From positions 2,453,001 to 2,517,000 of the forward strand of contig NZ_WTYR01000001.1 in NCBI RefSeq assembly GCF_009827575.1: a stretch of DNA of 64,000 nt, given 5' to 3'. Shown piece by piece: positions 18,903 to 35,120 of the stretch (within the stretch, counting starts at the first letter, position 1; every line of letters begins with the position of its first letter). Under the pieces are notes generated by a model, which did not search any database, was not told the DNA's origin, and saw only the letters and a list, made by a program, of their open reading frames with translations. The position numbers were made by a program, and so were the translations under genes. This stretch comes from Alteriqipengyuania halimionae. GTDB taxonomy: Bacteria; Pseudomonadota; Alphaproteobacteria; Sphingomonadales; Sphingomonadaceae.

Positions 18903-18952
18903 TGACAGTTTAGGCTTCGCACGCTAACTCCGCCCGCAATGGAGTGGGGTGC

Positions 18953-20068
18953 ATGAAAACAATCCTCGTCGTCTTCGGCACACGGCCGGAAGCCATCAAA
19001 CTGTTTCCGGTGATCAATGCCCTCCGGGAGGCGGACGGCATACGCCCCGTCGTATGCGTTTCCGCGCAGCATCGTGGTCTGCTCGACCAGGTGCTCGCAA
19101 TTGCCGGGATCGTGCCCGATTTCGATCTCGACATCATGACGCCAGGCCAGACTCTCGATGCGCTCACCGCATCATTACTGGTCGAGCTGGGCAAGGTGAT
19201 GGACGACGTGAAGCCCGATCGCGTGCTGGTCCAAGGCGATACCGCAACGGTCATGTGCGGCGCGCTTGCCGCCTATTATCGCAAAATACCGGTCGACCAT
19301 GTCGAAGCGGGGCTGCGCAGCGGTAATATCTATCAACCCTGGCCCGAAGAGGTGAATCGCAAGGTCGTCGGCAGTTTTGCCGTGCTTCATTTCGCGCCGA
19401 CCGAAACCGCCGCCAATGCGCTGAAGGCAGAGAATGTCGACCCGGCGGCGATCCACGTGACGGGGAATACGGTGATCGATGCGCTGCACTGGGTCACCGA
19501 CCGGATCGAGCGCGAACCTGAATTGGCCGACGCGCTCGACGATCTGAAAACGCGCTTTTCCGGCAAGCGGATCATCGGCGTAACCAGCCACCGCCGCGAG
19601 AATTTCGGTGGCGGTCTCGAAGCGATCGCCGAAGCGATCCGTCGCCTCGCCGCGCGCGACGATGTCGCCTTGATCTTCCCTGTCCATCCCAATCCCAACG
19701 TGCGTGCGGTGATGGAAGAGGCACTGAGCGGGCTCGAAAATGTCGCGATGATTCCCCCGCTCGATTATCCCAACTTCGCGCATCTGCTTTCGCTGGCGGA
19801 CATCATGCTCACCGATAGCGGCGGGGTGCAGGAAGAAGCGCCCGCGCTCGGCAAACCGGTGCTGGTGATGCGCGACACCACCGAGCGGCCCGAGGGCGTG
19901 GCGGCAGGCACGGCCAGGCTCGTGGGGACCGATGCCGACACAATCGTCGCCGAGGTCGAGCATCTGCTCGACGATAGCGACGCGTACGAAGCGATGGCGC
20001 GGGCGCACAACCCCTTTGGCGACGGGAACGCAGCCGAGCGGATCGCGCGTCTTATCGCCGCAGCGTAA
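18953..20068 (+). CDS. wecB: UDP-N-acetylglucosamine 2-epimerase (non-hydrolysing)
   Basis: Converts UDP-GlcNAc to UDP-ManNAc in the cytoplasm; 371 residues with GT-B-like fold. Family motifs seen: FGTRPEAIKL, QGDTATVMCGALAAYY, HVEAGLRSG, GNTVIDAL, SHRRENFG and DSGGVQEEAPALGKPVLVMRD. The start is the ATG at 18953 rather than an upstream GTG/ATG, since the family begins MKTILVVFGTRPE; GGAGTGGGG is just ahead. First gene of the surface-glycan locus, 86 bases before wecC. It differs from the hydrolysing legG enzyme further along. Confidence 0.96.
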   Translation: MKTILVVFGTRPEAIKLFPVINALREADGIRPVVCVSAQHRGLLDQVLAIAGIVPDFDLDIMTPGQTLDALTASLLVELGKVMDDVKPDRVLVQGDTATVMCGALAAYYRKIPVDHVEAGLRSGNIYQPWPEEVNRKVVGSFAVLHFAPTETAANALKAENVDPAAIHVTGNTVIDALHWVTDRIEREPELADALDDLKTRFSGKRIIGVTSHRRENFGGGLEAIAEAIRRLAARDDVALIFPVHPNPNVRAVMEEALSGLENVAMIPPLDYPNFAHLLSLADIMLTDSGGVQEEAPALGKPVLVMRDTTERPEGVAAGTARLVGTDADTIVAEVEHLLDDSDAYEAMARAHNPFGDGNAAERIARLIAAA

Positions 20069-20154: not shown

Positions 20155-21414
20155 ATGCCGAACGGACAAGACATGACGGCGTGTGTGATCGGGCTGGGCT
20201 ATATTGGCCTGCCCACCGCTGCGATCATCGCACGCGCGGGAATCGAGACTTACGGCGTCGATGTCAGCCAGGACGTGGTCGACACGATCAATCGCGGCGA
20301 GATCCATATCGAGGAAGTCGATCTCGACGGACTGGTGCGCGGGGTTGTGCAGCGCGGCCTGCTTTCGGCCGGAACGGCGCTCCGCCAGGCCGACGTGTTC
20401 GTGGTCGCTGTGCCGACCCCGTTCGAAAAGGACGGCAAGCATACACCCGACCTGAGCTATGTGATGGACGCGGCCGCCAAGCTCGCGCCGGTGCTTGCGC
20501 CCGGGAACACCATCATCCTCGAGTCGACCTCGCCCGTCGGCACCACCGAAGCAATGCGCGACCGGATCGCCGAACTGCGTCCCGATCTGAAGCTGCCGGG
20601 CCTGACCGAGGGCACCGCGGACGTCGCGATCGCCTATTGTCCCGAACGCGTCCTTCCCGGACGCATCCTGGTGGAACTGATCGACAACGATCGCTCAATC
20701 GGCGGGATCACGCCGCGCTGCGCACGCAAGGCTCTATCCTTCTACAAGAAATTCGTGCGCGGCGAGTGCATCGTCACCGATGCGCGCTCGGCTGAAATGA
20801 CCAAGCTGGTCGAGAACGCCTTCCGCGATGTGAACATCGCCTTCGCCAACGAGCTGTCGATGATCGCCGATGCGATGGATCTCGACGTGTGGGAAGTGAT
20901 CCGCCTCGCCAACCGGCATCCACGGGTGAACATCCTTCAGCCCGGACCCGGTGTGGGCGGGCACTGCATTGCGGTAGATCCGTGGTTCATCGTCCACGGC
21001 GCGCCCGAACAAGCGAAGATCATCCGCACCGCGCGCGAGGTCAACGACGCCAAGATGGCGCATGTCCTCGAACGTGCGACGGCGCTGTGCGAAGCACATT
21101 CGGACAAGCAGATCGCCTGCTATGGCCTCGCCTTCAAAGCGAATATCGACGATTTCCGCGAGAGCCCGGCGCGTTTCGTCGCGGCCCGGCTCGCCCGCAA
21201 GTTCGGCGACCGAGTGGCGATCGTCGAACCGCATGCGCGCAGCCTCCCGATCGAGTTCGAAGACACCGGCGCCACGCTGACCGATCTCGACGACGCGCTC
21301 GAACGCTGCGACATTCATATCGTGCTGGTGGATCACGACGTCTTCCGCGCAGTGCCCGCCGAAGAGCGCGGCGATGCGCTGGTCTACGATACACGCGGCA
21401 TCTGGCCCGACTGA
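20155..21414 (+). CDS. wecC: UDP-N-acetyl-D-mannosamine dehydrogenase
   Basis: Oxidises UDP-ManNAc to UDP-ManNAcA with two NAD; 419 residues. N-terminal Rossmann motif VIGLGYIGLPTA (about 10), ESTSPVGTTE, the YCPERVLPG signature and the catalytic-cysteine motif GPGVGGHCIAVDPWF near residue 270 identify the UDP-sugar dehydrogenase family. WecB next to it fixes the substrate as UDP-ManNAc with good likelihood. No ManNAcA transferase (WecG/TagA type) was recognised in the window. Confidence 0.95.
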   Translation: MPNGQDMTACVIGLGYIGLPTAAIIARAGIETYGVDVSQDVVDTINRGEIHIEEVDLDGLVRGVVQRGLLSAGTALRQADVFVVAVPTPFEKDGKHTPDLSYVMDAAAKLAPVLAPGNTIILESTSPVGTTEAMRDRIAELRPDLKLPGLTEGTADVAIAYCPERVLPGRILVELIDNDRSIGGITPRCARKALSFYKKFVRGECIVTDARSAEMTKLVENAFRDVNIAFANELSMIADAMDLDVWEVIRLANRHPRVNILQPGPGVGGHCIAVDPWFIVHGAPEQAKIIRTAREVNDAKMAHVLERATALCEAHSDKQIACYGLAFKANIDDFRESPARFVAARLARKFGDRVAIVEPHARSLPIEFEDTGATLTDLDDALERCDIHIVLVDHDVFRAVPAEERGDALVYDTRGIWPD

Positions 21415-23140: not shown

Positions 23141-25357
23141 TTAGGCGCGCTCTTCTTCGTCCTGACCGTAGCGGAACCCGTAGCCATATCCGTAGCCATA
23201 CCCGTACCCAGTGGTGGATGCGTTGTCGAACTTGGTCAGGACGCCGCCGAGCAGGTTGGCGCGGCTGTCACGCAGGCGATCGAGCGAAAGGTTGATGCCA
23301 CGGACCGGAACGCCGCGCGATTCGATCACGTAGACAACGCCGTCGACTGATTTCGAGAGGAGCGGTGCATCGGCGATTCCGAGCAGAGGCGGTGCATCGA
23401 CCACGACATGGTCGTAGTTCTCGCGCAGCTTGCTGATTAAAGTACCTGTCCGATCGCCACTGAGGAGTTCGGCGGCGCTTGGCGGCGTGGGGCCTGCCGT
23501 CATCACATCGAGGTTCGACATGTCGCTGTGGTTGATGAGCAGGGCAAGGTCGTCTTCGCCGGCAAGGAAATTCGCGAAGCCCTGGCCGTTGGCCATGCCG
23601 AACGCATTGTGAACCGACGGGGAGCGCATGTCGGCATCGATAATGATAACGCGTTTGCCGGTTCGGGCGAGAATGCGCGCCAACGCGTAAGACGTCGTGC
23701 TCTTGCCTTCGGCTGCCCGGCTCGAAGTGATCATCACCACGCCGGGGACCCCTCTGGTCGAAGACAAAGCGAGGTTCGAGCGAATCGTGAGATAAGCCTC
23801 CGACACCTCGGACTTCGGATCGTCGACGAGGTCGGCGATTTCTTCGTCGTCCTCGGCCACCGGAACCACGCCCAACAGGGGCAGGCCAGTGGCGCTTGTC
23901 ACGTCGTCCGGTGTCCGGATCCCGTCATCGAACTGCTCGAGCAGGAACACAACGACTGCTGCGGCCACCGCACCGCCGAACAGCGCGATGAGCAGGTTCA
24001 GCATCAAATTGGGCGAAGACGGCGCTCCCGGCACTTGGGCCTGGTCGACGATCGCGATATTGCTGGCACCCACCGACGCTACGCCGATCTCGCGGTAGCG
24101 CTGGAGCGTGCCCTCATAGAGCTCGCGGTTGGTATCCACCTCGTTCTGGAAAATATTGTACTGGATTCGCGCGCGTTCCTGATCGCGGAGCTGTCCAGTT
24201 AGCGCGTCGACGCGGGCAGTCAGATCCTGCTCGCGCTTGAGCGCTGCCTGGTAATCGGCTCGCGAGCCACCGCGCAGACGCGATTCTTCGCGGGCAATGG
24301 AGGTTTCGAGCGCATCGATCTGTTCGGCAAGCGCGCGCGCTGCAGGATAGCCGGGTTCGAACTTAACCATCATCTCGGCATATTGCGCCTGCAAGTCGGC
24401 GAGCCGGTTGCGAAGATTGGCAACCGCCGTATTGCCAGCGAAATCCGACCCGCCGGGCGATGCGGCGCGAGCTTCCAGGGCAACACGCTGGGCGGTGGCC
24501 TCGACCAGCGCGGAATTCAGTTGTTCGAGGGTCGCGGCCTTGAGCGTGGGCGTCGCAACGGTGCGGCCGTCCTGCTCTTGCCGGTTGAGGATCACGATGT
24601 CGTTTTGGTTGGCGTAAGTCACCAACTTGCGTTCGGAGTCTTCGACGTCCTTGCGCAATTCGGCGAGGCGTCGTTCGAGGAAGGACTGGGCATCGCTGGT
24701 CATCGAGAAGCGACGGTCGATGCTCTCGGCAATGAACTGTTCCGACCAGGCATTGGCGATTTCTGCCGAAAGCGCGGGGCTGGCACTGGTGTAGACGATA
24801 TCGACCAGCGAGGATCGCGCGATAGGCGAAATCGAGACATTTCCAAGGAGCAGCCCAACCGCCCCTTTGCGCAGTTTATCCAACTCCTCGCGGGTGGGAA
24901 CCTGGCCGGTCGATTCGCGCAGCGGAAGATCGTTGATATCGATGCCATGGGCCTCGAAAAATTCGGGGCGGGTGGCCAGACGCAACTCACGTTCGACCCG
25001 TTCGGCGACGGACCTTGCGGTCAATAACTGGTACTGGGTTTCGTAGAATTCCTGATCGAATGTACGATCGACATCGTCGACGCCTTCGACGTTGGTGATC
25101 CGCTGGTCCTGCCGCGCGATTTCGAGACGCGAGGATGCGGTGTATTGCGGCACGGCGAGCAAGGTTGCGGCGATCCCGGCGAGCAACGCCGCGGCGACAA
25201 CCCCGAGGATGATCCACTTGCGGCGTAGAATGATCCCGAGATATTCGCGAATGAGGGATGCCTCGTGCCCCTGGTGATTGGCGGTGGCATCGGAATAGAC
25301 TTCCGGCGCGGAGAAGATGTTATCGCCTTCCGGCGAGAAGTTGGTTGCACTAGACAT
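23141..25357 (-). CDS. Polysaccharide co-polymerase/tyrosine autokinase (Wzc/ExoP type)
   Basis: A 738-residue inner-membrane protein controlling chain length and export. Two transmembrane segments (about 50-70 and 460-480) flank a periplasmic Wzz region with long coiled coil (about 200-430). The cytoplasmic BY-kinase domain has Walker A SRAAEGKSTTS, Walker A' VIIIDADMRSP and Walker B VVVDAPPLLG. The C-terminus carries six tyrosines in an alternating Gly-Tyr run, the autophosphorylation cluster typical of BY-kinases. Downstream of the Wza-like gene by 17 bases. Phosphorylation cycling would need a phosphatase (Wzb), which is not visible in the window. Confidence 0.94.
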   Translation of the reverse strand: MSSATNFSPEGDNIFSAPEVYSDATANHQGHEASLIREYLGIILRRKWIILGVVAAALLAGIAATLLAVPQYTASSRLEIARQDQRITNVEGVDDVDRTFDQEFYETQYQLLTARSVAERVERELRLATRPEFFEAHGIDINDLPLRESTGQVPTREELDKLRKGAVGLLLGNVSISPIARSSLVDIVYTSASPALSAEIANAWSEQFIAESIDRRFSMTSDAQSFLERRLAELRKDVEDSERKLVTYANQNDIVILNRQEQDGRTVATPTLKAATLEQLNSALVEATAQRVALEARAASPGGSDFAGNTAVANLRNRLADLQAQYAEMMVKFEPGYPAARALAEQIDALETSIAREESRLRGGSRADYQAALKREQDLTARVDALTGQLRDQERARIQYNIFQNEVDTNRELYEGTLQRYREIGVASVGASNIAIVDQAQVPGAPSSPNLMLNLLIALFGGAVAAAVVVFLLEQFDDGIRTPDDVTSATGLPLLGVVPVAEDDEEIADLVDDPKSEVSEAYLTIRSNLALSSTRGVPGVVMITSSRAAEGKSTTSYALARILARTGKRVIIIDADMRSPSVHNAFGMANGQGFANFLAGEDDLALLINHSDMSNLDVMTAGPTPPSAAELLSGDRTGTLISKLRENYDHVVVDAPPLLGIADAPLLSKSVDGVVYVIESRGVPVRGINLSLDRLRDSRANLLGGVLTKFDNASTTGYGYGYGYGYGFRYGQDEEERA
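23168..23210 (-). repeat. Short tandem coding repeat, Tyr-Gly cluster of the autokinase
   Basis: Imperfect six-base repeats (TAC/TAT GGN) encode five Gly-Tyr dipeptides, then a Phe-Arg-Tyr-Gly. Such simple repeats can change copy number by slippage without breaking frame, which would alter the number of phosphorylatable tyrosines. Confidence 0.6.
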
Positions 25358-25374: not shown

Positions 25375-26100
25375 TCAGAGCGTATTCTGCAAAAGAATCG
25401 TCAACGGCGTGGCGACCAGCGTTGCCGCACTTACGATGTTGTCGAACAGGCGCCGCGAGTTGCTTTCGCCGACGACGATCACGTCGTTGGGATAGATCGC
25501 CGGATCGTCATACATTCCGCGGCTGATCGCTTCGAGATTGTAAAGCGTCGCCATGCGCTGTCCCGACACGGTGCGAAAGACGACGACATCGCGCGAATTC
25601 GCGAACTGGCCGAGTCCGCGCGCCTTGGCGATCGTCGTCATCAACGAAGATTTGCGAGCGACCGGATAGACGCCCGGCATCTGAACCGAACCGTACACGG
25701 TGACTTCCCGTTCGGTCGTCTGCGTGACAAGTGTGCTCACTTGCGGATCCCGGACGAAGTCGCCGCGCAGTCTTTGTTCGATGCGTTCGGAAACTTCTTC
25801 CGGCTGCAGGCCGGCGACTTCGACGGTACCGATGAGGGGGAACGAGATTCGACCGTTCTCGTCGACCGCGACTTCGCGATTGCTGAGGTCGGGAACGCCA
25901 AACACGTCGACCTTGAGGCGATCGCCGATCCGCACGCGCGTATCCGTAGGCACGCCTTCCATGTCGGCGTCGGTCGGCGCAGGCATTTCGCCCTCGATGA
26001 CCTCGAGGCCCGGCGCACCACCCACCGGTGCGGGCGTACTACTGCAACTGCTCGCCAAGAGGGAGCAGAGCGCAATGCCCATTGCCGCAATAGATTTCAT
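25375..26100 (-). CDS. Polysaccharide export outer-membrane protein (Wza-like)
   Basis: A 241-residue secretin-like export protein. It has a signal peptide with a possible lipid-attachment Cys19 (LLASSC; the lipobox is atypical), then a Poly_export domain (about 55-135, RIGDRLKVDVFGVPDL and ISFPLIGTVEVAGL) and a SLBB domain (about 140-210, VYGSVQMPGVYPV). The C-terminal hydrophobic stretch (SAATLVATPLTILLQ) may be the outer-membrane helix. Start ATG has GGTGGGA ahead; longer in-frame starts would overlap the O-antigen-ligase-like gene. Followed by the autokinase gene, the classical wza-wzc pairing. Confidence 0.92.
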   Translation of the reverse strand: MKSIAAMGIALCSLLASSCSSTPAPVGGAPGLEVIEGEMPAPTDADMEGVPTDTRVRIGDRLKVDVFGVPDLSNREVAVDENGRISFPLIGTVEVAGLQPEEVSERIEQRLRGDFVRDPQVSTLVTQTTEREVTVYGSVQMPGVYPVARKSSLMTTIAKARGLGQFANSRDVVVFRTVSGQRMATLYNLEAISRGMYDDPAIYPNDVIVVGESNSRRLFDNIVSAATLVATPLTILLQNTL

Positions 26101-26132
26101 GTCGATCCCACCCGGTTCGCTTCGACGCGGCT

Positions 26133-27530
26133 TCAAGGCCGTGCTGTTTGTTTTGCCTGCCCCGCCGAAGCAGCGGGCAGTCTCATCCATACCGCCGCGA
26201 CCGCAGCCACACAGGCCAGCGACGGAACGCGCAGGGGGTAATCGACCAGACTCCAAAGTCCAAGAATAAAAAGCGCGGACAAGCCCACCCAAGACAGCAG
26301 GTCGGGCGTCCGGCCGAGTGGCAAACGGGCCCATGCCGTGCGCCCTGTGCGCGCGATCGCAACCATCGCGAGTACGAGCAGGATGACTGCCGGGACGCCC
26401 AGTTCGAGGATCCACTCGAGCCAATCATTATGCGCATGGTTCCAGTAGGTGGTGCCGAGCATGTCGCGAGGCTCGTGGACCTGAAACAGCTCGACGAACG
26501 ATCCCACGCCCGAGCCGAAGGGCTGGTACTGGCCCATGAACCCGACCACGGTTTCCCAGACCGGCCAACGGTTTTCGTCGGCTGCGCTGGTTTCGGCGAG
26601 GCGACCGAGTCCGTCGGCACGCGAGAAGGCGATTGCGATGAATGCGGTCACGAACACGGTGGCGATCGCTCCGACGATATAAAACGGCTTCAGCGACCGG
26701 GCGCCACGCTTTCGCACCGGGGGTTCCCATGCGCGGATGAGAGCGGCGCTGAACAGCGCCGCGATCACCAGCCCCACAAACCCGGCGCGCGACCCCGTTG
26801 CAAGAGCCAGCAAAACCAGCACGATTGCAGTGGCCCCTGTGGCGGTGTGCACCAGCGCGCGAACCGCGCCTTTGGCTTTCAGCCCGAAGACCGCGAGCAT
26901 TGGAAGCGCTATACACAACATGGCAGCGGAGTGATTGCGGTTGGCGAAAAGGCCGACGGGATAATCCGTATTGGTAACCGCATAAGGAAACAGCGAGCGG
27001 TTGAGCCCGCTGGCGACCTGCGCCACGGCAAGCAGTGCGCTCGTGGCCGCGAGGGCGAGGATGACCAGCAGAAGCTTGCGATGCTGGTCTACCGTCAGCT
27101 GCATCGCGAGGATCATGGCTGCAGCGGGGACCAACATGGCGTAAAATGCATTCCAGCCACGGTGCGGCGAAAGGGTCAAGGGACGCCATTGGTCTTCGAG
27201 CCCAACGAGGCGACCTGCTTCGACCGCGATGTCGCGCCCGGGCAGCGCCGACCAGATTGCTGGTGGCAGCGGCACCACATGCAGCCCGATCAGCACCACG
27301 ATGGCCGCCATGATGCCGAGTGCGAGGCGATGGATGTGCACCTGATCGCGCTTCAGTGTCACCAATCCGATCGCTAGACAGATCACTCCGAGCGGGCGCA
27401 GCAGAATCAGCGAGATGATATCGCCGCGCGAGCCCCCACCCATGAGGAAGACGGCAATCATCAGCACAACAAGCGTGAAGAACGGAATCGATCGGCTATC
27501 GAGCCGCTTGAGAGTGAACTTTCGGCCCAT
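26133..27530 (-). CDS. O-antigen ligase/polymerase family membrane protein
   Basis: A 465-residue polytopic protein with about eleven hydrophobic segments. The large periplasmic loop carries the family signature with GLFANRNHSAA and HAHNDWLEWILELG, matching the Wzy_C/O-antigen ligase (PF04932) pattern with its functional histidine. It could polymerise repeat units (Wzy) or transfer the glycan to an acceptor (WaaL); sequence alone does not decide. It follows the SDR epimerase gene by four bases and precedes the Wza-like gene. Confidence 0.85.
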   Translation of the reverse strand: MGRKFTLKRLDSRSIPFFTLVVLMIAVFLMGGGSRGDIISLILLRPLGVICLAIGLVTLKRDQVHIHRLALGIMAAIVVLIGLHVVPLPPAIWSALPGRDIAVEAGRLVGLEDQWRPLTLSPHRGWNAFYAMLVPAAAMILAMQLTVDQHRKLLLVILALAATSALLAVAQVASGLNRSLFPYAVTNTDYPVGLFANRNHSAAMLCIALPMLAVFGLKAKGAVRALVHTATGATAIVLVLLALATGSRAGFVGLVIAALFSAALIRAWEPPVRKRGARSLKPFYIVGAIATVFVTAFIAIAFSRADGLGRLAETSAADENRWPVWETVVGFMGQYQPFGSGVGSFVELFQVHEPRDMLGTTYWNHAHNDWLEWILELGVPAVILLVLAMVAIARTGRTAWARLPLGRTPDLLSWVGLSALFILGLWSLVDYPLRVPSLACVAAVAAVWMRLPAASAGQAKQTARP

Positions 27531-27534
27531 AGCT

Positions 27535-28665
27535 CTACTTTAGCAATTTGCGCTCGCGCATTTCGTCGAGGCTCTTCTGATAGGCGCTTTCCTGCGGGCC
27601 CGAGGCTTTCGCCCAGTCTGCCAGACGCGCAATGCCGCGTTCGAAATCGAACTGCGGGGCAAAACCCAGCCGATCGCTGATCTTCGCCATATCCGCGTAG
27701 TTGTGGCGGATGTCGCCAAGGCGGAAATTGCCGCTGACTTCGATCGGCACGTCGGCTTCGAGCAGGCGAGACAAGGTTCGCGCAACGGTCATCACGCTGA
27801 CCGGCACGCCGGTTCCCACGTTGAAAACCTCGTTCGCGGCGGCCGGATGCTCGACGCCGAGCACGGTCGCTTCGACCACATCGTCGACGAACACGAAGTC
27901 GCGGCTTTCCTCGCCATCCTCGAAGATGTTGATCGGCTTGCCCTGCATCATCAGGTTCGAGAAGATCGAGAGGATGCCGGTATAGGGGTTGGAGAGCGAC
28001 TGGCCGGGGCCGAACACGTTCTGATAGCGGAAGGCGACGCCTTCGATCCCGATCGACGGGCACACCGTCATCACCAGCTGTTCCTGCACCTGCTTGGTGA
28101 TGCCGTAGACCGAGCTGGGGTGGATCTTCGAATCCTCGTCGGTCGCGACCAGTTCGAGCGTGCCATCCACTCCGGGTTGCTTCACTTCGAAATCGCCCGC
28201 TTGCATGTCGGCTTCTGCGCGATGCTCCGGATAGACATAGCTGCCATCGGGGGCGCGATAGCGGCCTTCGCCGTAAATCGAGCGCGATGAAGCCACGACC
28301 ACGCGTTTTACCGCATGATCTCCGTTCGCCAGGATATCGAGCATCAGAGATGTGCCGCCGATATTGACGTCGGAATATCGTTCGATCTGGTACATCGACT
28401 GGCCGGTGCCGGTTTCTGCGGCGAGGTGGACAACCACCTCCTGGCCGTCGAGTGCGCGCTCCATCGTAGCGCGATCGGTCACCGAGCCACGGATGAACGC
28501 TGTCTTTTCGGCAATCGCGCGATAGCCTTCGGATTGTTCCGGATCGGCACCGTGTACCTGTTCAAGGAGACTGTCGAGCACGGTCACGTCGTGACCTTTT
28601 TCGACGAGTCGCAGCGCAAGCCGCGAGCCGATGAACCCGGCTCCGCCCGTAATCAGTACCTTCAT
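27535..28665 (-). CDS. NAD-dependent epimerase/dehydratase (extended SDR)
   Basis: A 376-residue nucleotide-sugar-type SDR. The N-terminal GGAGFIGS binds NAD; the active site has a Ser-Ser pair (VASSRSIYGEGR) and YGITK (YxxxK, about residue 188). A 40-residue insertion (about 130-180) between the Ser and Tyr motifs is longer than usual. The C-terminal substrate-binding part contains FRYQNVFGPGQ and SRDFVFVDDVV. ATG start overlaps the stop of the gene before it by four bases. Third gene of a coupled trio with the Gfo/Idh/MocA oxidoreductase and an aldo-keto-reductase-like protein. Substrate unknown. Confidence 0.88.
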   Translation of the reverse strand: MKVLITGGAGFIGSRLALRLVEKGHDVTVLDSLLEQVHGADPEQSEGYRAIAEKTAFIRGSVTDRATMERALDGQEVVVHLAAETGTGQSMYQIERYSDVNIGGTSLMLDILANGDHAVKRVVVASSRSIYGEGRYRAPDGSYVYPEHRAEADMQAGDFEVKQPGVDGTLELVATDEDSKIHPSSVYGITKQVQEQLVMTVCPSIGIEGVAFRYQNVFGPGQSLSNPYTGILSIFSNLMMQGKPINIFEDGEESRDFVFVDDVVEATVLGVEHPAAANEVFNVGTGVPVSVMTVARTLSRLLEADVPIEVSGNFRLGDIRHNYADMAKISDRLGFAPQFDFERGIARLADWAKASGPQESAYQKSLDEMRERKLLK

Positions 28666-29561
28666 GCGCTGGCTCCCTCGGGTTCGATCAGCGAAACGCT
28701 CTGCCGGATGTTGCCGGGGGAGGACGCGCCGAACACGACCGACTGGATATTGTGGCGATTTATATATTCGTAGGCTTCGGCCGGCGGCACTGCGCCCGAC
28801 GCGAGAGTCGACATTGCCATGACCGGGTACTTGGTTCCGTCGTTTTCGGCCAGTACCTGCTCATATTCCTCGACGCCCGGTGACATCAGATAGCCGATCT
28901 TGTTGATCGAGGCGCAGATGACGACATCCTCGATCCCCCATTCGATCAGCTTGGCCCGCAGGAATGGCAGGTTCTGCGTAATGAGGCCGGGGTAGGCGCC
29001 GTACTTCTTGCGGATATGCTCGCAATAGGCCTTGAAGGGTTCGGCCACGTCGTAGCCCAGCATCAGATCGACGATGACGTTCTGCAGGAACACCACCCGG
29101 ACATCGAGATCGTGATAGATCTCCATCTCCTGGTCGACGAGCATCTTCATCAGCTTGACCGCGTCGAGAGTCGCGACCGCCATGCCGCCTTTCAGCATCT
29201 TGCCGAGCGCTGATTTGGCGCCTTGCGCGAACAGAATTTCCTGCACCGCGCCGACCATGCCGCGATCGTTGACCATGCTCGCATATTTATGCGGATAGGG
29301 GATCGAGGGATACCAGCGCAAATGGCCGTATTTGTCCGGATCGGCGCGGAATCGGTCGCAAATGCCCTTTGCGCGATCATTGCTGTTGAGCATGATGCCT
29401 TCGATGCCCGCTTCGATCGCGTGATCGTAAACAGCCATTACATTGTCGAGCTTGGCAAATCGTTCGGCACGTTCCTGTGCCTTGTCCTGGCTCATGTGGT
29501 TGATGCCGAAGAACTGGTTGTCGCCGAACACGATGCGGTCGATGGGGCCGTTGGCGCTCAT
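28662..29561 (-). CDS. Aldo-keto-reductase-like TIM-barrel protein lacking the usual catalytic residues
   Basis: A 299-residue soluble protein. The first strand (RIVFGDNQFFGINH) and first helix/strand (AVYDHAIEAGIEGIMLNSND) have the layout of aldo-keto reductases. The end (VVFGASSPGNIRQSVSLI) matches their C-terminal GASSPEQL pattern. However, where the family has its catalytic Asp and Tyr (DTAxxYG), this protein reads NSNDRAKG. It may be a different TIM-barrel enzyme working on a sugar. Coupled by four-base overlaps to the Gfo/Idh/MocA gene before it and the SDR gene after it. No function assigned; family call is tentative. Confidence 0.6.
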   Translation of the reverse strand: MSANGPIDRIVFGDNQFFGINHMSQDKAQERAERFAKLDNVMAVYDHAIEAGIEGIMLNSNDRAKGICDRFRADPDKYGHLRWYPSIPYPHKYASMVNDRGMVGAVQEILFAQGAKSALGKMLKGGMAVATLDAVKLMKMLVDQEMEIYHDLDVRVVFLQNVIVDLMLGYDVAEPFKAYCEHIRKKYGAYPGLITQNLPFLRAKLIEWGIEDVVICASINKIGYLMSPGVEEYEQVLAENDGTKYPVMAMSTLASGAVPPAEAYEYINRHNIQSVVFGASSPGNIRQSVSLIEPEGASA

Positions 29562-30616
29562 GCAGCGTCTCCCTGGGCATTCGCGGCACCGTCGGCGAAC
29601 AGCTGTTCGATGACCCGAAGATTGGCGCTCGCATCAGCGAAGGTGCAGCGCACCGGTGCAGGCTCGCCCGCCTTTGCCGCGCGCACGGCGTCGATGAAAT
29701 CGAACATCTGCGCGGTGTATTCGATGCCGCGGACGTAGAAGGGCACGCTGGAGAACACATCGGTGATGTAGAGCTGGTTCCAGCCCTCTTTCAGTCCATG
29801 CGCCTCGTGCGCCCGGGTAAGGAAAATCTTTATCCCGTGCTGGTCGACCTGGATCTTGCCCTCGCTGCCGAAGACTTCGAACTTGTTGGTCGGCTTGCGG
29901 AAACTGGCATCGGACCAGTTGACGTAGATCGTGCCGGCCAGCCCGCTCTCGTAGAACAGCGAGGAGCTGACCACGTCCTCGACCTGCTTGGACCAGACCT
30001 TCGTCAGGCTGGTGCCACCGACCCTGTCGGGCGCGCCGAGCATGTAGTTGATCAGGTCGAGCGCATGACTCGCCATTTCGTAGACCGCGCCGCCACCATT
30101 GGCATGGGTCGAGCGCCAGCCCGCGTCGCCCGGATCGCGGATGATCGTAGGGCTGAACATTTCGCTGCGAAAGCGCAGCGGCCTGCCGATAAGACCATGC
30201 TCGATGAAGCTCTTGGCCTTGGTGAACATGTCGTTCCAGCGATTGACGTAGCCGACCTGGTTGACGAGCCCCGCAGCGTCGAACGCGCGGGCGAAACGTT
30301 CGCCGTCGCCCGCGGAAAGCATGAAGGGCTTTTCGACGAACGCGTGGAGCTTCGCCTCGAGCGCAGCATCGAGAATCTCGGGATTGAGCGCGGGCGGGGT
30401 GCAGACGAGCACACCGTCGAGCTGCTCGCCTTTCAGCAAGCCCTTGTAATCCTTGTAGGTCGAAACCTTGGTATACTTGCCGAGCATCGTGGTTATGAGC
30501 CTGGATGGATCGGCGACGCCGGTCACTTCGGCGTGTTCGTGCGCATTGGCGATCGAGAAATGGGTGATACCCATCCGTCCCGCGCCGACGATGCCCAGTT
30601 TCAGCGAATTGTTCAT
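29558..30616 (-). CDS. Gfo/Idh/MocA family oxidoreductase
   Basis: A 352-residue NAD(P)-dependent sugar oxidoreductase. N-terminal Rossmann domain with GIVGAGRMGITH and the family EKP motif (HAFVEKPF, about residue 97). The C-terminal alpha/beta domain has GGGAVYEMASHALDLINYMLG, with the catalytic His in SHALD. Such enzymes oxidise or reduce nucleotide sugars at C3 in glycan loci. First of a three-gene coupled unit; the preceding 88 bases to the CgeB-like gene hold no gene I can see. Confidence 0.9.
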   Translation of the reverse strand: MNNSLKLGIVGAGRMGITHFSIANAHEHAEVTGVADPSRLITTMLGKYTKVSTYKDYKGLLKGEQLDGVLVCTPPALNPEILDAALEAKLHAFVEKPFMLSAGDGERFARAFDAAGLVNQVGYVNRWNDMFTKAKSFIEHGLIGRPLRFRSEMFSPTIIRDPGDAGWRSTHANGGGAVYEMASHALDLINYMLGAPDRVGGTSLTKVWSKQVEDVVSSSLFYESGLAGTIYVNWSDASFRKPTNKFEVFGSEGKIQVDQHGIKIFLTRAHEAHGLKEGWNQLYITDVFSSVPFYVRGIEYTAQMFDFIDAVRAAKAGEPAPVRCTFADASANLRVIEQLFADGAANAQGDAA

Positions 30617-30704: not shown

Positions 30705-31700
30705 TCAAACGGCTTGCGGCGGCTCCCGCTCGCCGATGATTTCTAGCAGACAATCGGTCACAGAACGCCATTTGATCGTCGGCCGCTTGCCCTTCAGCGC
30801 GGCCACTTCGAGCGCGAGGGTCGCGGGATCGTCGCCGGGCTCGAACACCACGCGATGCTCCTCGTCGAAATGGGGGCTGCGCGCGATATTGGGGTTGTTG
30901 GTGATCAGCTTCGCGCCGCTCGCCAGCGCCTCGAAGCTGCGCATGGTCAGCCCGGTCTGCTTGTCATGGGCGTAGTCGATCGTGAAATCCGACGTGGCCA
31001 GCACGCGCCGGTAATCCTCGTACGGCAGCGGCGTGCGATGGATATGTTTGCGCCAGCGGCGATAAAGGCGCGGCTGCTTGAGGAAGTTCCACGCCAGCGA
31101 GCGAATGTCCTGCTCGAAGATGTAGAAGAACGAATCCTCGGGCCGGATATCGAGCGCGCGGACCACGGCGTCGAGATAGGCGAGCCGGTTGGAATGATTG
31201 CGCATGATCGCGGAAAATCCGATCCGGATCGGCTCGACTTCGGCAGGCGGGGCCTGGGCCGAGAACAGCTCCACCAGCGGCCAGCCCTTGTCCTTCGCAT
31301 CGCGCGAATCGAAGGTAGAGACGCGGTCGATCCCTTCGGCCCAGCGTTCGGTCGCGCGGTCGTAGGCGAGCGCATCGAAATGATAGCCGACGACCCTGTC
31401 CGCATGAGCTTTCAGGTCCGCGACCAGCTGCCTGCCGACCCCGCGCCCCTTGATGATGACCACCAGATCATAGCGCTTGCCCGTCAGAAACCTCTCGTTG
31501 ACGACGCGGCGCGTGATCCGCCGCGCCACTTCGAGGTCGAGCTTGGCGATGACCTTGCCGACGGGGTTCTCCGGATATTCCTCGTTCGCCTCGGTCACAT
31601 CGTAGCCGAGCTCGCGCAGCGCGTTGCCGAACATTCTCGCGAAGCTGTAGAAGGTGCGCGGGAGGATCAGCAGGCAGGTCTTGTCGGCGTGATCGGCCAT
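30705..31700 (-). CDS. CgeB-like glycosyltransferase, copy B
   Basis: A 331-residue GT-B-like protein. The C-terminal half has the donor-side pattern DYAHDKQTGLTMRSFEALASGAKLITNN, which fits the CgeB/Glyco_trans_1_2 family. The N-terminal half (TFYSFARMFGNALRELGYDV) fits an acceptor domain. A closely organised homologue is encoded four bases upstream, sharing the layout HQTGYTMR..ENL..RKIITSN. The two probably arose by duplication and may add successive sugars. Donor and acceptor unknown. Confidence 0.75.
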   Translation of the reverse strand: MADHADKTCLLILPRTFYSFARMFGNALRELGYDVTEANEEYPENPVGKVIAKLDLEVARRITRRVVNERFLTGKRYDLVVIIKGRGVGRQLVADLKAHADRVVGYHFDALAYDRATERWAEGIDRVSTFDSRDAKDKGWPLVELFSAQAPPAEVEPIRIGFSAIMRNHSNRLAYLDAVVRALDIRPEDSFFYIFEQDIRSLAWNFLKQPRLYRRWRKHIHRTPLPYEDYRRVLATSDFTIDYAHDKQTGLTMRSFEALASGAKLITNNPNIARSPHFDEEHRVVFEPGDDPATLALEVAALKGKRPTIKWRSVTDCLLEIIGEREPPQAV

Positions 31701-31704
31701 CGCG

Positions 31705-32682
31705 TCAGGTCTGCGGATTGGGATGGGACGTCCCGTCGATCAGGTGCTTGGCAAAGGTCTGCACGTGATACTCGGGGAACATCCGCTCGGGTTCGGCCAG
31801 CGGCATGTCGAGGAATTCTTCCACGCCTTCGAAGCCGTCACCTTCCTCGAACACATGAAAGCGGTCGGGCGAATAGAAGCTCTCGCGCTTTACGCCGGCA
31901 TTGCTGGTGATGATCTTGCGCCGGGCGCACAGGTTCTCGATTACCCGCATCGTGTAACCGGTCTGGTGGTGATTGGCGAAATCGAAGGTCGCGCTGACGG
32001 ACTTCATCATTGCGATGAAGTCCTCCTTGGCAATCGGTCCGCTGGCGAGGCCGCGGGGCACGTGCCCGGCCTTGACCAGGGCCGCCTTGACCGGCGGTGT
32101 GGTGGCAAGATGCGTCTTGAACTCGATGCCGCGCTGCTCGCAATAATCGCGAAACTCGGCGATCATCAGATAGCGCGGGATCTTGACGAGATTGCCGACG
32201 AAATAGACGCCCTTCGGGGCCTCGCGCGGATCTTCCTCGAACTGGAACTGGCGCAGGCAGAACAGCGGCAGATATTTGTAGCCGTATTTGGCCGCATCAC
32301 CCTGATCGAAGGTGTAGATATCGTCGAAGCGATCCGCGTAGGGCCGGTAATCGTGGTTGTCGATCGAGTCCCAGTTGTAGAGCGCAAAGCGCGCGCCGGG
32401 AAAGGCGTCGCGAAATCCGTCGAGCTCGGCAGGACGCAACTGGTGGACCTGGATGAAAAGCACCAGATCGTAGGTTTTGTCCTTCTCCGCACGCAGGATA
32501 GCCGCATGGTGGCGATGCAGCGCTTTTTCCCACATCGGCCGCGACAGCGTGCTCAGCGCTTTCCACGCCAGCGAGCGTGGCTGGATGTCGTACACCGAGA
32601 CGGTATGTCCCATCCGCTCGAACTCGTCGGCGATAGCGCGGGTGTAGTCGTGGTAGTGGAGCGCCACCATCAGGATGTTCAT
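31705..32682 (-). CDS. CgeB-like glycosyltransferase, copy A
   Basis: A 325-residue GT-B-like protein with start MNILMVALHYHDYTRAIADEF and the C-terminal motif FDFANHHQTGYTMRVIENLCARRKIITSN. Like its neighbour it belongs to the CgeB/Glyco_trans_1_2 type by eye. A DSIDNHDY loop in the middle is followed by YTFDQGDAAKYGYKYLPLF, where the neighbour reads STFDSRDAKDKGWPLVELF, so the two are paralogues. ATG start; the gene to its left begins four bases after its stop. Confidence 0.75.
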   Translation of the reverse strand: MNILMVALHYHDYTRAIADEFERMGHTVSVYDIQPRSLAWKALSTLSRPMWEKALHRHHAAILRAEKDKTYDLVLFIQVHQLRPAELDGFRDAFPGARFALYNWDSIDNHDYRPYADRFDDIYTFDQGDAAKYGYKYLPLFCLRQFQFEEDPREAPKGVYFVGNLVKIPRYLMIAEFRDYCEQRGIEFKTHLATTPPVKAALVKAGHVPRGLASGPIAKEDFIAMMKSVSATFDFANHHQTGYTMRVIENLCARRKIITSNAGVKRESFYSPDRFHVFEEGDGFEGVEEFLDMPLAEPERMFPEYHVQTFAKHLIDGTSHPNPQT

Positions 32683-33480: not shown

Positions 33481-34854
33481 CTATCGTGATCGGCCCGGGC
33501 CTCGAATGCCGGGATGAGATCGCGCCGGCGACGAGGCCTGGCCGCGGCTCGACGATGTCGTGGAAAATCCAGGCCGGCCCGTGAGGGTCGGTTTGCGGTG
33601 GAGTTTACGCACAATCTCGGGGTTGCTCGATCGCGTCGACTCTCTGCTGGGCGGGATCAGCAAGCCGCTGAACGCGATCATGAGGATGAAGGGCGAAAAA
33701 ACCAGCGCTTCGGATGTCATCGAGAGCAGGATCAGCATCGCGAACAGCCAGCGCGGTCGCCAAAGACGCTGGCGCCAGATGCCCCACAGGAACACCAGGG
33801 AAAGCGGAATGCCGACAGAATAAAGCAGCACAACGAGGCCGTTGCTGTTGGTCCGTTCGGAGATACTCTTCGCGGACAGACTGACATCAAGGTAGCCAAC
33901 ATCTGCGGCGATGGCCTGGTATTTTTCATGATCGAACCCGATCCCGGTCAGCGGTTTTTCCATCGCCACGTTGATACCGGTGCGCAAATCGAACTCGCGC
34001 GCTTCGGTCGATCCGCTGAATTGGCCATGAAACTTCTCGCCGAGATTGTAGGTCGCGTAGGCGGCGATCGGCACGAGCAGGATCGGCCCTGCGAGCAAGA
34101 CGGCCAGTCTCCAGCGGCCGGTCGTCCTGATCCACCTGAACCACACTATGCCGTATTGCATCACGAGGATAACCGCGCCGGTGGTCGATTGCGTTGCGAT
34201 CACGGCGAGGGTGGCGAGCCCGATATTGACCAGCGAGAACCTGCGCATGAACAGGCAGATGAAGAGGAAAATATTGAGATATATCTGAAACACGCCTGCC
34301 TCGAAAAAGAAGCCGTCGGGTCGTTTGAAGGTCGTCGCGTTGGCGATGAGGTCATGGTACGTGAAAATGTACAGAAAGGTCTCGTAGACCGCTTTGCCGA
34401 CGTTGAACGACCAGAACAGGTCCGGGCGCAAAAACGCAAGGACCGGCGTCAGGACGGCCTGGACAGCCATGAGCCGGAGGATCGGGAACAATTCGTCCGC
34501 GATCGTTCCGGGGCGGACGTCGACATAGATCGCCAGCAGCGCCACCGCCGCCAGGAAGTTGGCATAACGCACGGCAAAGGCGCTCACCTGAACGTCGCCG
34601 CCACCGATGAGCGCAACCCCTCCCGTCACCAACAGGACAAACCAGACCGGCAAGAACTCGCGACGGAACATCCGTATGGGATTGGTGTGCGCAAAGCAGA
34701 AGATGAGCAGAGCGAGAAGCAGCGGTAAACGGGGAAGCGCGAGCGATCCGCCCGAAAGCAGCATGGCGGTGAAAAGCGCCAATTGCCGGAGGCGAAGAAG
34801 AGTGACAGGGTCGCGGAAGGCGAACCCGATGCGAGGCGCACTCCGAGCGATCAT
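33481..34854 (-). CDS. Wzy-like O-antigen polymerase candidate
   Basis: A 457-residue polytopic protein with about eleven hydrophobic segments and a long periplasmic loop (LGEKFHGQFSGSTEAREFDLRTGINVAMEKPLTGIGFDHEKYQ), a layout usual for Wzy polymerases and O-antigen-ligase-like proteins. The region around 34,240-34,400 is visibly richer in A+T than its neighbours. The last 55 residues form a Ser/Arg/Pro-rich tail unlike membrane proteins, which may be a read-on after a frame change or a genuine disordered tail. Start uncertain between TTG (34866) and ATG (34854). Second such protein in this locus. Confidence 0.75.
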   Translation of the reverse strand: MIARSAPRIGFAFRDPVTLLRLRQLALFTAMLLSGGSLALPRLPLLLALLIFCFAHTNPIRMFRREFLPVWFVLLVTGGVALIGGGDVQVSAFAVRYANFLAAVALLAIYVDVRPGTIADELFPILRLMAVQAVLTPVLAFLRPDLFWSFNVGKAVYETFLYIFTYHDLIANATTFKRPDGFFFEAGVFQIYLNIFLFICLFMRRFSLVNIGLATLAVIATQSTTGAVILVMQYGIVWFRWIRTTGRWRLAVLLAGPILLVPIAAYATYNLGEKFHGQFSGSTEAREFDLRTGINVAMEKPLTGIGFDHEKYQAIAADVGYLDVSLSAKSISERTNSNGLVVLLYSVGIPLSLVFLWGIWRQRLWRPRWLFAMLILLSMTSEALVFSPFILMIAFSGLLIPPSRESTRSSNPEIVRKLHRKPTLTGRPGFSTTSSSRGQASSPARSHPGIRGPGRSR

Positions 34855-35120
34855 CTGACCGGCCAAGGCTCGGCTCGAGCATAAGTGGGGGTGAAAAGCT
34901 CGGTGTCCGCGGTCGGCGACCCCGACCCCGTCATACGCGAAGGCATAGCCGTGAGGCTGTACTTGCTCGACTTTAAACCGCTGATGCGGAACTGAACCAT
35001 GCTACCCGCCCGATAAGACCAAAGCGCCGTTACACCTTGCGTTGCGCAGCGGCAAGCGCTCGGACCTTCCGGAGCTATGGCGCAGGATGAAGGCCTCTTC
35101 CTCAGATCAGTGAGCATCCT
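34855..35120 (-). other. Gap between SGNH-like and Wzy-like genes, with a possible gene remnant
   Basis: No complete gene fits here. One minus-strand frame, about 34,855-35,000, reads VQFRISGLKSSKYSLTA and SGSPTADTELFTPTYARA, which resembles the end of a beta-sandwich surface protein. It has G/C-rich third positions but no plausible start. It may be a decayed fragment of a lost gene or chance. Confidence 0.3.

Follow-up and report, generated by a model that had tools for sequence, protein, structure and literature searches.

What reaction is encoded where a dehydrogenase, a barrel protein without a family assignment and an epimerase-like enzyme lie head to tail on one strand? The question is raised by a locus on the minus strand of a 64,000-nucleotide stretch of the Alteriqipengyuania halimionae genome (contig NZ_WTYR01000001.1, positions 2,453,001 to 2,517,000; hereafter the window), where the open reading frames (ORFs) give, in order, a Gfo/Idh/MocA-type dehydrogenase (Gfo), a middle protein resembling the aldo-keto reductases (AKRs) and an extended short-chain dehydrogenase/reductase (SDR). 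An earlier note on this DNA had proposed that the three genes, coupled by four-base overlaps, serve one pathway, and that the active site of the AKR-like protein is degenerate. Both overlaps are indeed present, each as ATGA (Table 1). The single pathway stands in part: the linkage of the Gfo and AKR-like genes goes far beyond chance, but the core of the unit is this pair, and the SDR is specific to one clade. We therefore restate the unit as a tightly linked pair of a Gfo and an AKR-fold protein without the AKR catalytic tetrad, joined in one clade by an SDR. With a probability of roughly 45%, we read the pair as a two-enzyme sugar-tailoring module of bacterial exopolysaccharide and O-antigen loci that works by keto-sugar chemistry; it probably carries out a sugar modification that has not been described before.

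The pairing was followed in relatives of the middle protein gathered by exact peptide patterns, QFFGINHM included, of which 80 were kept out of 146 found; with the window they form an 81-row alignment. A Gfo homologue lies upstream on the same strand and within 1 kb of the AKR-like gene in 78 of the 80 loci, and the two others, L051 and L075, begin at most 137 nt from a contig end. The distance from the Gfo stop to codon 10 of the AKR-like gene is at most 75 nt in 69 of the 78 loci, 150 nt in one and 438-986 nt in eight. Among 199 genomes of the window's family, the AKR-like profile (E<=1e-3) detects 10 and the profile of the Gfo type found in the pair detects 9, all of which also hold the AKR-like gene; the cut-offs for this Gfo (E<=1e-40) and for the SDR (1e-120) were of our own choosing. 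The two genes adjoin in seven of these nine genomes and are about 1 kb apart in two, and in the tenth genome a 27%-identical AKR-like gene and a 25%-identical Gfo overlap by 4 nt. Small inserted genes lie between Gfo and AKR-like gene in L074 (5025-5995), L077 (5490-5984) and L070 (5128-5985), and we take them to be glycosyltransferases of the Alg14/Alg13-like (PssD/PssE) type; gaps of comparable length occur in L078 and L079, where the contents are less clear.

The two proteins have also diverged in parallel. Their distance matrices correlate with r=0.92 over 76 loci, a value reached by none of 1000 label shuffles (highest 0.08), and in subsets of 8-15 loci r was 0.94-0.96 for the pair vs 0.42-0.86 for the AKR-like protein with six neighbour clusters, small ones in which paralogues may be mixed. 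A quick tree of the relatives carries 13 phylum labels, taken from record titles, and requires 19 label changes vs the least possible 12; it groups the window's clade with Bacteroidota, Ignavibacteriota and others and places other Erythrobacteraceae rows (L064, L074) in the opposite half. The pair recurs across about a dozen bacterial phyla and has likely been transferred between lineages. It is nevertheless sparse, being present in 2 of 398 genomes of a phylum sample (the window's own included), and a single-sequence search of a class sample of 289 genomes found the AKR-like gene in the window's own genome only. Since Bradyrhizobium carries the pair, a role in making bradyrhizose was considered, and it was dropped because the pair spans 13 phylum labels; the available part of the source attributes that sugar to a cluster of eleven genes in photosynthetic strains (PMC4743980).

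Four plasmid records carry the AKR-like gene, which is annotated as a hypothetical protein in three and left unannotated in one; in two named records this hypothetical protein stands beside a "Gfo/Idh/MocA family oxidoreductase". An 83-kb Bacteroides thetaiotaomicron plasmid (NZ_CP103120.1, L118) holds the pair together with an O-antigen ligase family gene, and a Palleronia plasmid (NZ_CP136763.1, L119) holds it near the VPLPA-CTERM exosortase XrtD, a polysaccharide export gene and a WecB/TagA/CpsF-family glycosyltransferase. No phage record was found with the AKR-like gene, and no relative among viral contigs with patterns taken from strand 1 only.

The first member of the pair looks like a working dehydrogenase. 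Its N-terminal Rossmann and C-terminal domains all score above the profile cut-offs (PF01408, E 1.9e-19, 70.9 bits, cut-off 24; PF22725, 5.2e-24, 85.1 bits, cut-off 27; PF02894, 46.4 bits, cut-off 22.9). The residues E95 K96 P97, R126, W167 R168, G174-176 and H184 are kept in 76 of 76 rows, position 180 is D in 43 and E in 33, and the EKP and GGG..[D/E]..H motifs are intact; the EKP lysine and the D/E...H residues are presumably the catalytic motif of Gfo/Idh/MocA proteins. An AlphaFold2 model (mean predicted local distance difference test, pLDDT, 95.5) has as its 50 nearest solved folds mostly sugar and inositol dehydrogenases at Z 33.1-38.5, among them levoglucosan dehydrogenase (38.5, the top match, with scyllo-inositol dehydrogenase at 37.7 and others within one Z unit of it), WlbA (36.2, 3q2k), glucuronide-3-dehydrogenase (34.5) and GnnA (33.5, 7bvj). 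Because several of these oxidise C3, our guess for the site of oxidation is C3.

The second member was claimed by the earlier note to keep the AKR frame, and structure prediction and comparison agree. The AlphaFold2 model built from the 81 sequences (pLDDT 84.3; predicted template modelling score, pTM, 0.83) has eight strands in barrel order and is poor in residues 1-4 and 113-131; as predicted, it is a (beta/alpha)8 barrel of the AKR type. AKRs rank first in Foldseek (best E 3.0e-07, TM-score 0.56), and the VIA comparison with the AKR PA4992 (4exa_D) gives Z 18.9 at a root-mean-square deviation of 3.2 over 228 aligned residues. The 50 entries listed by VIA are AKRs or Kv-channel entries (Z 16.5-18.9, identity 10-17%), the latter with a beta subunit that we take to have the AKR fold. 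The middle protein thus has the barrel and the strand-7 and strand-8 loops in common with the AKR superfamily (PF00248; PA4992 4exa, YghZ 3n6q, AKR11C1 1ynp, Kv-beta), including the GASSP end at residues 278-282, and a weak profile likeness at the C-terminus. In contrast to that superfamily, it is only 10-17% identical to its members, lacks the tetrad Tyr and His, and has its own signature, GDN-x-FFG-[IV]-NH. It gave no Pfam or NCBIfam match at E<=1, and PF00248 is absent among the 24 families matched by the 81 members at E<=5, a search in which the HMMER filters discard most matches above 0.1; by profile, then, the family would fall outside PF00248. The single PF00248 match of the host genome is another locus (L099). 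When family profiles were compared with hhalign, the last ~40 residues aligned locally to true AKRs with a probability of 20%, and a forced global alignment gave 39%. A PDB profile search placed AKRs at E 0.5-1.5, behind one unrelated match at 0.38; pentatricopeptide matches in another PDB search were one short weak match, repeated, and were dismissed.

AKRs are well-studied oxidoreductases in which a catalytic tetrad, Asp-Tyr-Lys-His, is nearly universal. True AKRs from the relatives (n=23, two weak or partial sequences being left out) carry D in 22, Y in 23, K in 23 and H in 21 at the tetrad columns. In the middle family no Tyr was found at residues 58-66 and no His at residues 156-163 in any of the 81 rows, Asp occurs within residues 55-59 in one row (at 55), and Lys occurs within residues 82-89 in five rows, all at 82. 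On these column counts the family does not carry the tetrad, which bears out the earlier suspicion about the NSNDRAKG segment (residues 59-66) standing where the Asp and Tyr belong. The global alignment pairs the AKR Asp with M57 and brings D62, five residues further on, near the place of the Tyr; the residue at 62 is Asp in 58 of the 81 rows and Glu in 18. Neither of the two outcomes that the note had named as speaking against its idea, an intact AKR active site and a trio unlinked in all relatives, was found.

A different set of residues is conserved instead. There are 39 invariant columns in the 81 rows, with H22, just after strand 1, as their sole His and Q160 and N161 in the strand-4 FLQN. 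For residues 16-23 the invariance is in part built in, because the fetching patterns included QFFGINHM. Profile searches without the peptide filter yielded ten further rows, of which at least four come from genomes that the set already contained. All 39 invariant residues are present in eight of these rows, 37 in one (changed by M23A and M57A) and 27 in the remote L091. L091, with the signature GDNPFFGVNH, retains G13-N15, F17-G19, N21, H22, Y89, Q160, N161, D165, N197, C216 and N220. Lys92, present in 81 of 81 rows, is Arg in L091, where D143 and E145 fall in gaps. Lys221 on strand 6 was rejected as a Schiff-base lysine, since 7 of the 81 rows lack Lys there.

The mechanism that we favour would begin with oxidation of a hydroxyl to a ketone by the Gfo, most likely at C3 of an NDP (nucleoside diphosphate)-hexose or NDP-uronate. 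The AKR-fold protein would then act on the keto intermediate by acid/base, non-hydride chemistry in a rebuilt active site, for which D14, H22, Y89, Q160, N161, N197 and N220 are candidate residues. The step could be an epimerisation or isomerisation beside the ketone, or a loss of water within the sugar. That the tetrad is lost while the phosphate loops of strands 7 and 8 are kept suggests that the chemistry is redox-neutral and involves a ligand bearing a diphosphate, either an NDP-sugar or NAD(P), and the loops may now hold the nucleotide diphosphate. A bolder version of this reading would make the family a new class of enzyme, in which an AKR barrel has given up hydride transfer, with its NAD(P)-pyrophosphate site turned into an NDP-sugar site and an obligate Gfo partner, working in a redox-neutral sequence of oxidation, rearrangement and re-reduction towards an undescribed glycan sugar in more than 10 phyla. 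We regard that full version as rather doubtful.

Another reading, compatible with the rest, is that all three genes form one pathway with the SDR as its third enzyme, which we consider a real possibility short of an even chance. The SDR matches PF01370 (1.4e-48) and scores 139.2 bits with the galE model, whose cut-off is 262.3; with none of the 25 NCBIfam models listed, of 86 matched, does it reach the curated cut-off. G7, G8, G10, G13, S126, Y187 and K191 are kept in 13 of 13 rows, so it has PF01370, GGxGxxG and YxxxK in common with extended SDR epimerases and dehydratases of NDP-sugars such as GalE and RmlB, and it is probably an NDP-sugar epimerase or related enzyme. In the window's clade it may add or complete a further step, perhaps a 4-epimerisation. 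The SDR-bearing loci and the window make up one clade (13 of 13 loci; Shimodaira-Hasegawa-like approximate likelihood ratio test, 99), with the SDR directly downstream of the AKR-like gene in 12 and elsewhere in the locus in L011, and in these loci the SDR has diverged almost as the Gfo has (r(AKR,SDR)=0.88 vs r(AKR,Gfo)=0.91). In L127 (genome G398), an SDR 60% identical to the window's recurs ~3 kb from a remote pair (AKR-like 27%, Gfo 25%), all three genes lying within ~6 kb. Against the trio, 68 of the 80 loci lack a close SDR homologue, the other 12 having one, and looser SDRs occur in G140 (50% identity) and G410 (46%), genomes without an AKR-like match; in the 18 kb around each of these SDRs, no homologue of the Gfo or of the AKR-like protein was found at E<=1e-12. 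From their start sequences we take the neighbours of the G140 SDR to be rmlB, rmlD, rmlA and rmlC, which would suit a dTDP-sugar 4-epimerase, and we read the G410 SDR as lying near an ABC-type exporter.

The tetrad-less protein might instead still transfer hydride, binding NAD(P)H in its kept loops and reducing the keto product of the Gfo from the opposite face, with new residues in place of the tetrad and a net 3-epimerisation as the outcome. Oxidation followed by reduction from the opposite face is a simple logic for a two-enzyme pair, and the AKR fold is retained along with AMSxLASG on strand 7 and GASS on strand 8, the first of which we take to resemble the "YSPLxxG" pyrophosphate loop of AKRs and the second to be an AKR-like phosphate loop. 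We nonetheless think it unlikely: no row has a Tyr or a His in the stretch where AKRs carry it, and Lys appears only at the edge of its stretch, in five rows. Moreover, where the weak alignment is followed, the strand-6 Gln of 22 of the 23 true AKRs, presumably a nicotinamide contact, is replaced by Cys in all 81 rows, as is the strand-7 stacking aromatic by Met.

Two-enzyme systems in which a dehydrogenase oxidises C3 offer further comparisons. The pair's Gfo shares its fold, intact motifs and glycan loci with the NDP-sugar 3-dehydrogenases WlbA/WbpB and GnnA. According to the available part of the source, WbpB oxidises C3 of UDP-GlcNAcA and an aminotransferase dependent on pyridoxal phosphate acts next (PMC10622841), whereas the partner in our pair is an AKR-fold protein. 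None of the family models tried identifies the middle protein as an aminotransferase. In the levoglucosan pathway (LgdA/LgdB1/LgdB2/LgdC) C3 is oxidised and a second enzyme acts on the 3-keto sugar (PMC7676230), and in GlycDH/OGE a dehydrogenase is combined with a TIM (triosephosphate isomerase)-barrel OGE that is Mn-dependent with His, Asp and Glu ligands (PMC10628242), as described in the portions of these papers at hand. Both resemble our pair in having a dehydrogenase whose neighbour enzymes act on the 3-keto sugar. By this precedent, and with levoglucosan dehydrogenase as the nominal top fold match of the Gfo, the barrel could be an eliminase that cleaves the bond at C1 by beta-elimination after C3 oxidation. 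That reading strikes us as improbable. As far as those portions go, the precedent systems are catabolic and their barrel partners are annotated as sugar phosphate isomerases/epimerases, unlike the biosynthetic setting here, and AKR does not occur as a term in the OGE paper. The middle family has neither the AP_endonuc_2-like barrel nor the metal site of OGE: no His/Asp/Glu cluster is invariant, and PF01261 matches 1 of 81 members at E 0.18. Less probable still is a non-catalytic or substrate-channelling role that leaves the chemistry to the Gfo, which would suit the strict pairing, parallel divergence and ancestral tetrad loss, since 27 of the 39 invariant residues are still kept at 27% identity and the polar D14, N15, Y89, Q160, N161, N197 and N220 sit at or just past strand ends, with the look of an active site.

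Several observations weigh against the keto-sugar module that we prefer. The homology of the middle protein to AKRs is read from a predicted fold and a weak sequence match, and non-AKR TIM barrels appear at ranks 32, 41 and 50 among the 50 Foldseek matches listed. The acidic residue at position 62 (76 of 81 rows), at the place of the AKR Tyr, would make AKR-like proton chemistry possible, and the partly kept cofactor loops could allow NAD(P) binding. The correlation of AKR-like and Gfo distances leaves shared ancestry in play. The fold scores of the modelled Gfo do not separate free sugars, inositols and NDP-sugars and identify no substrate, and neighbour genes of dTDP-, GDP- and UDP-sugar types are mixed, so that they appear to yield no consensus on a single pathway or substrate.

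What the neighbours do appear to point to is glycan assembly in general rather than one sugar, and the glycan-biosynthesis setting claimed earlier was recovered, with glycosyltransferases, WecG, WecB and SDRs near the pair. Gene calls on these GC-rich loci are crude, with the wrong frame chosen for some neighbour ORFs (e.g. in L002), so counts are rough lower bounds. The commonest Pfam families of the upstream neighbours (n=63) are Glycos_transf_1 (12), WecG (10), DUF1972 (10), GT28-C (9) and DUF354 (7); downstream (n=57) Epimerase-type SDRs are commonest (14), with WecG (9) and UDP-GlcNAc 2-epimerase (4). Among 216 same-strand neighbours of 240-480 aa, out of 435 called, the NCBIfam families (best 25 of 52 and best 25 of 59, E<=1e-40) include rmlA/B/D, gmd, Fcl, NeuB, LegB, WecB and UDP-ManNAc dehydrogenase types in small numbers each. 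Aminotransferases are absent from the 20 Pfam families of the upstream neighbours and from the best 25 of 32 families downstream, where some ORFs are in the wrong frame, and the LegC and DesI types occur once each among the NCBIfam families listed.

The window itself offers a polysaccharide locus around the trio (Table 1), with a hexapeptide transferase and an MBOAT protein besides the features tabulated, and it holds two Wzy_C proteins of the O-antigen ligase/polymerase type in that one locus. The two WaaS/CpsH-type glycosyltransferases adjoin each other just upstream of the Gfo, and the second has a homologue in 10 of the 13 trio loci, the window included. Near several trio loci and in L127 there is a homologue of a gene that we read as GDP-L-fucose synthase (Fcl). 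The remote pair and SDR of L127 (6119-16215) lie with a WecB homologue, a WaaS/CpsH-like glycosyltransferase, the Fcl homologue and a homologue of a methyltransferase-like gene that we read as FkbM-like. A gene at L091:2054-3046 looks WecG-like by eye, and a WecG query from L010 gave no match in L127 at E<=1e-12.

Table 1. Coordinates in the window of the three genes, their motifs and nearby genes of the polysaccharide locus.
Feature	Position	Strand	Remarks
Gfo/Idh/MocA dehydrogenase	29558..30616	-	352 aa; PF01408/PF22725/PF02894
AKR-fold middle protein without AKR tetrad	28662..29561	-	299 aa; no Pfam/NCBIfam model found
Extended SDR	27535..28665	-	376 aa; PF01370, GGxGxxG and YxxxK intact
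ATGA overlap, 4 bases, Gfo/AKR-like	29558..29561	-	read from sequence
ATGA overlap, 4 bases, AKR-like/SDR	28662..28665	-	read from sequence; same 4-nt overlap in the five nearest relatives, L002-L006
GDNQFFGINH signature, residues 13-22, after strand 1	29496..29525	-	81/81
NSNDRAKG, residues 59-66, near AKR catalytic Asp/Tyr place	29364..29387	-	hhalign and column counts
FLQN, residues 158-161, strand 4, AKR catalytic-His place	29079..29090	-	Q160/N161 in 81/81
AMSTLASG, residues 249-256, strand 7	28794..28817	-	A249, M250, S255, G256 in 81/81
GASSP, residues 278-282, strand 8	28716..28730	-	G278 A279 S280 in 80/81, one gap
UDP-GlcNAc 2-epimerase	18944..20068
UDP-sugar dehydrogenase	20155..21414
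Wzz/AAA protein	23141..25357
Polysaccharide export protein	25378..26106
Wzy_C protein	26133..27530
WaaS/CpsH-type glycosyltransferase, first	30705..31700
WaaS/CpsH-type glycosyltransferase, second	31705..32682
Wzy_C protein	33481..34866

Literature searches, with most subscription journals outside their coverage, returned no paper on the Gfo/AKR-like pair or on a tetrad-less AKR. Both proteins of the pair are small and look soluble, and they should be directly testable as purified proteins. A widespread and highly conserved barrel family without the tetrad, standing beside one Gfo subfamily, is a lead to a sugar-modifying reaction that is as yet unassigned, and the pair may make a glycan sugar that has so far gone unrecognised.

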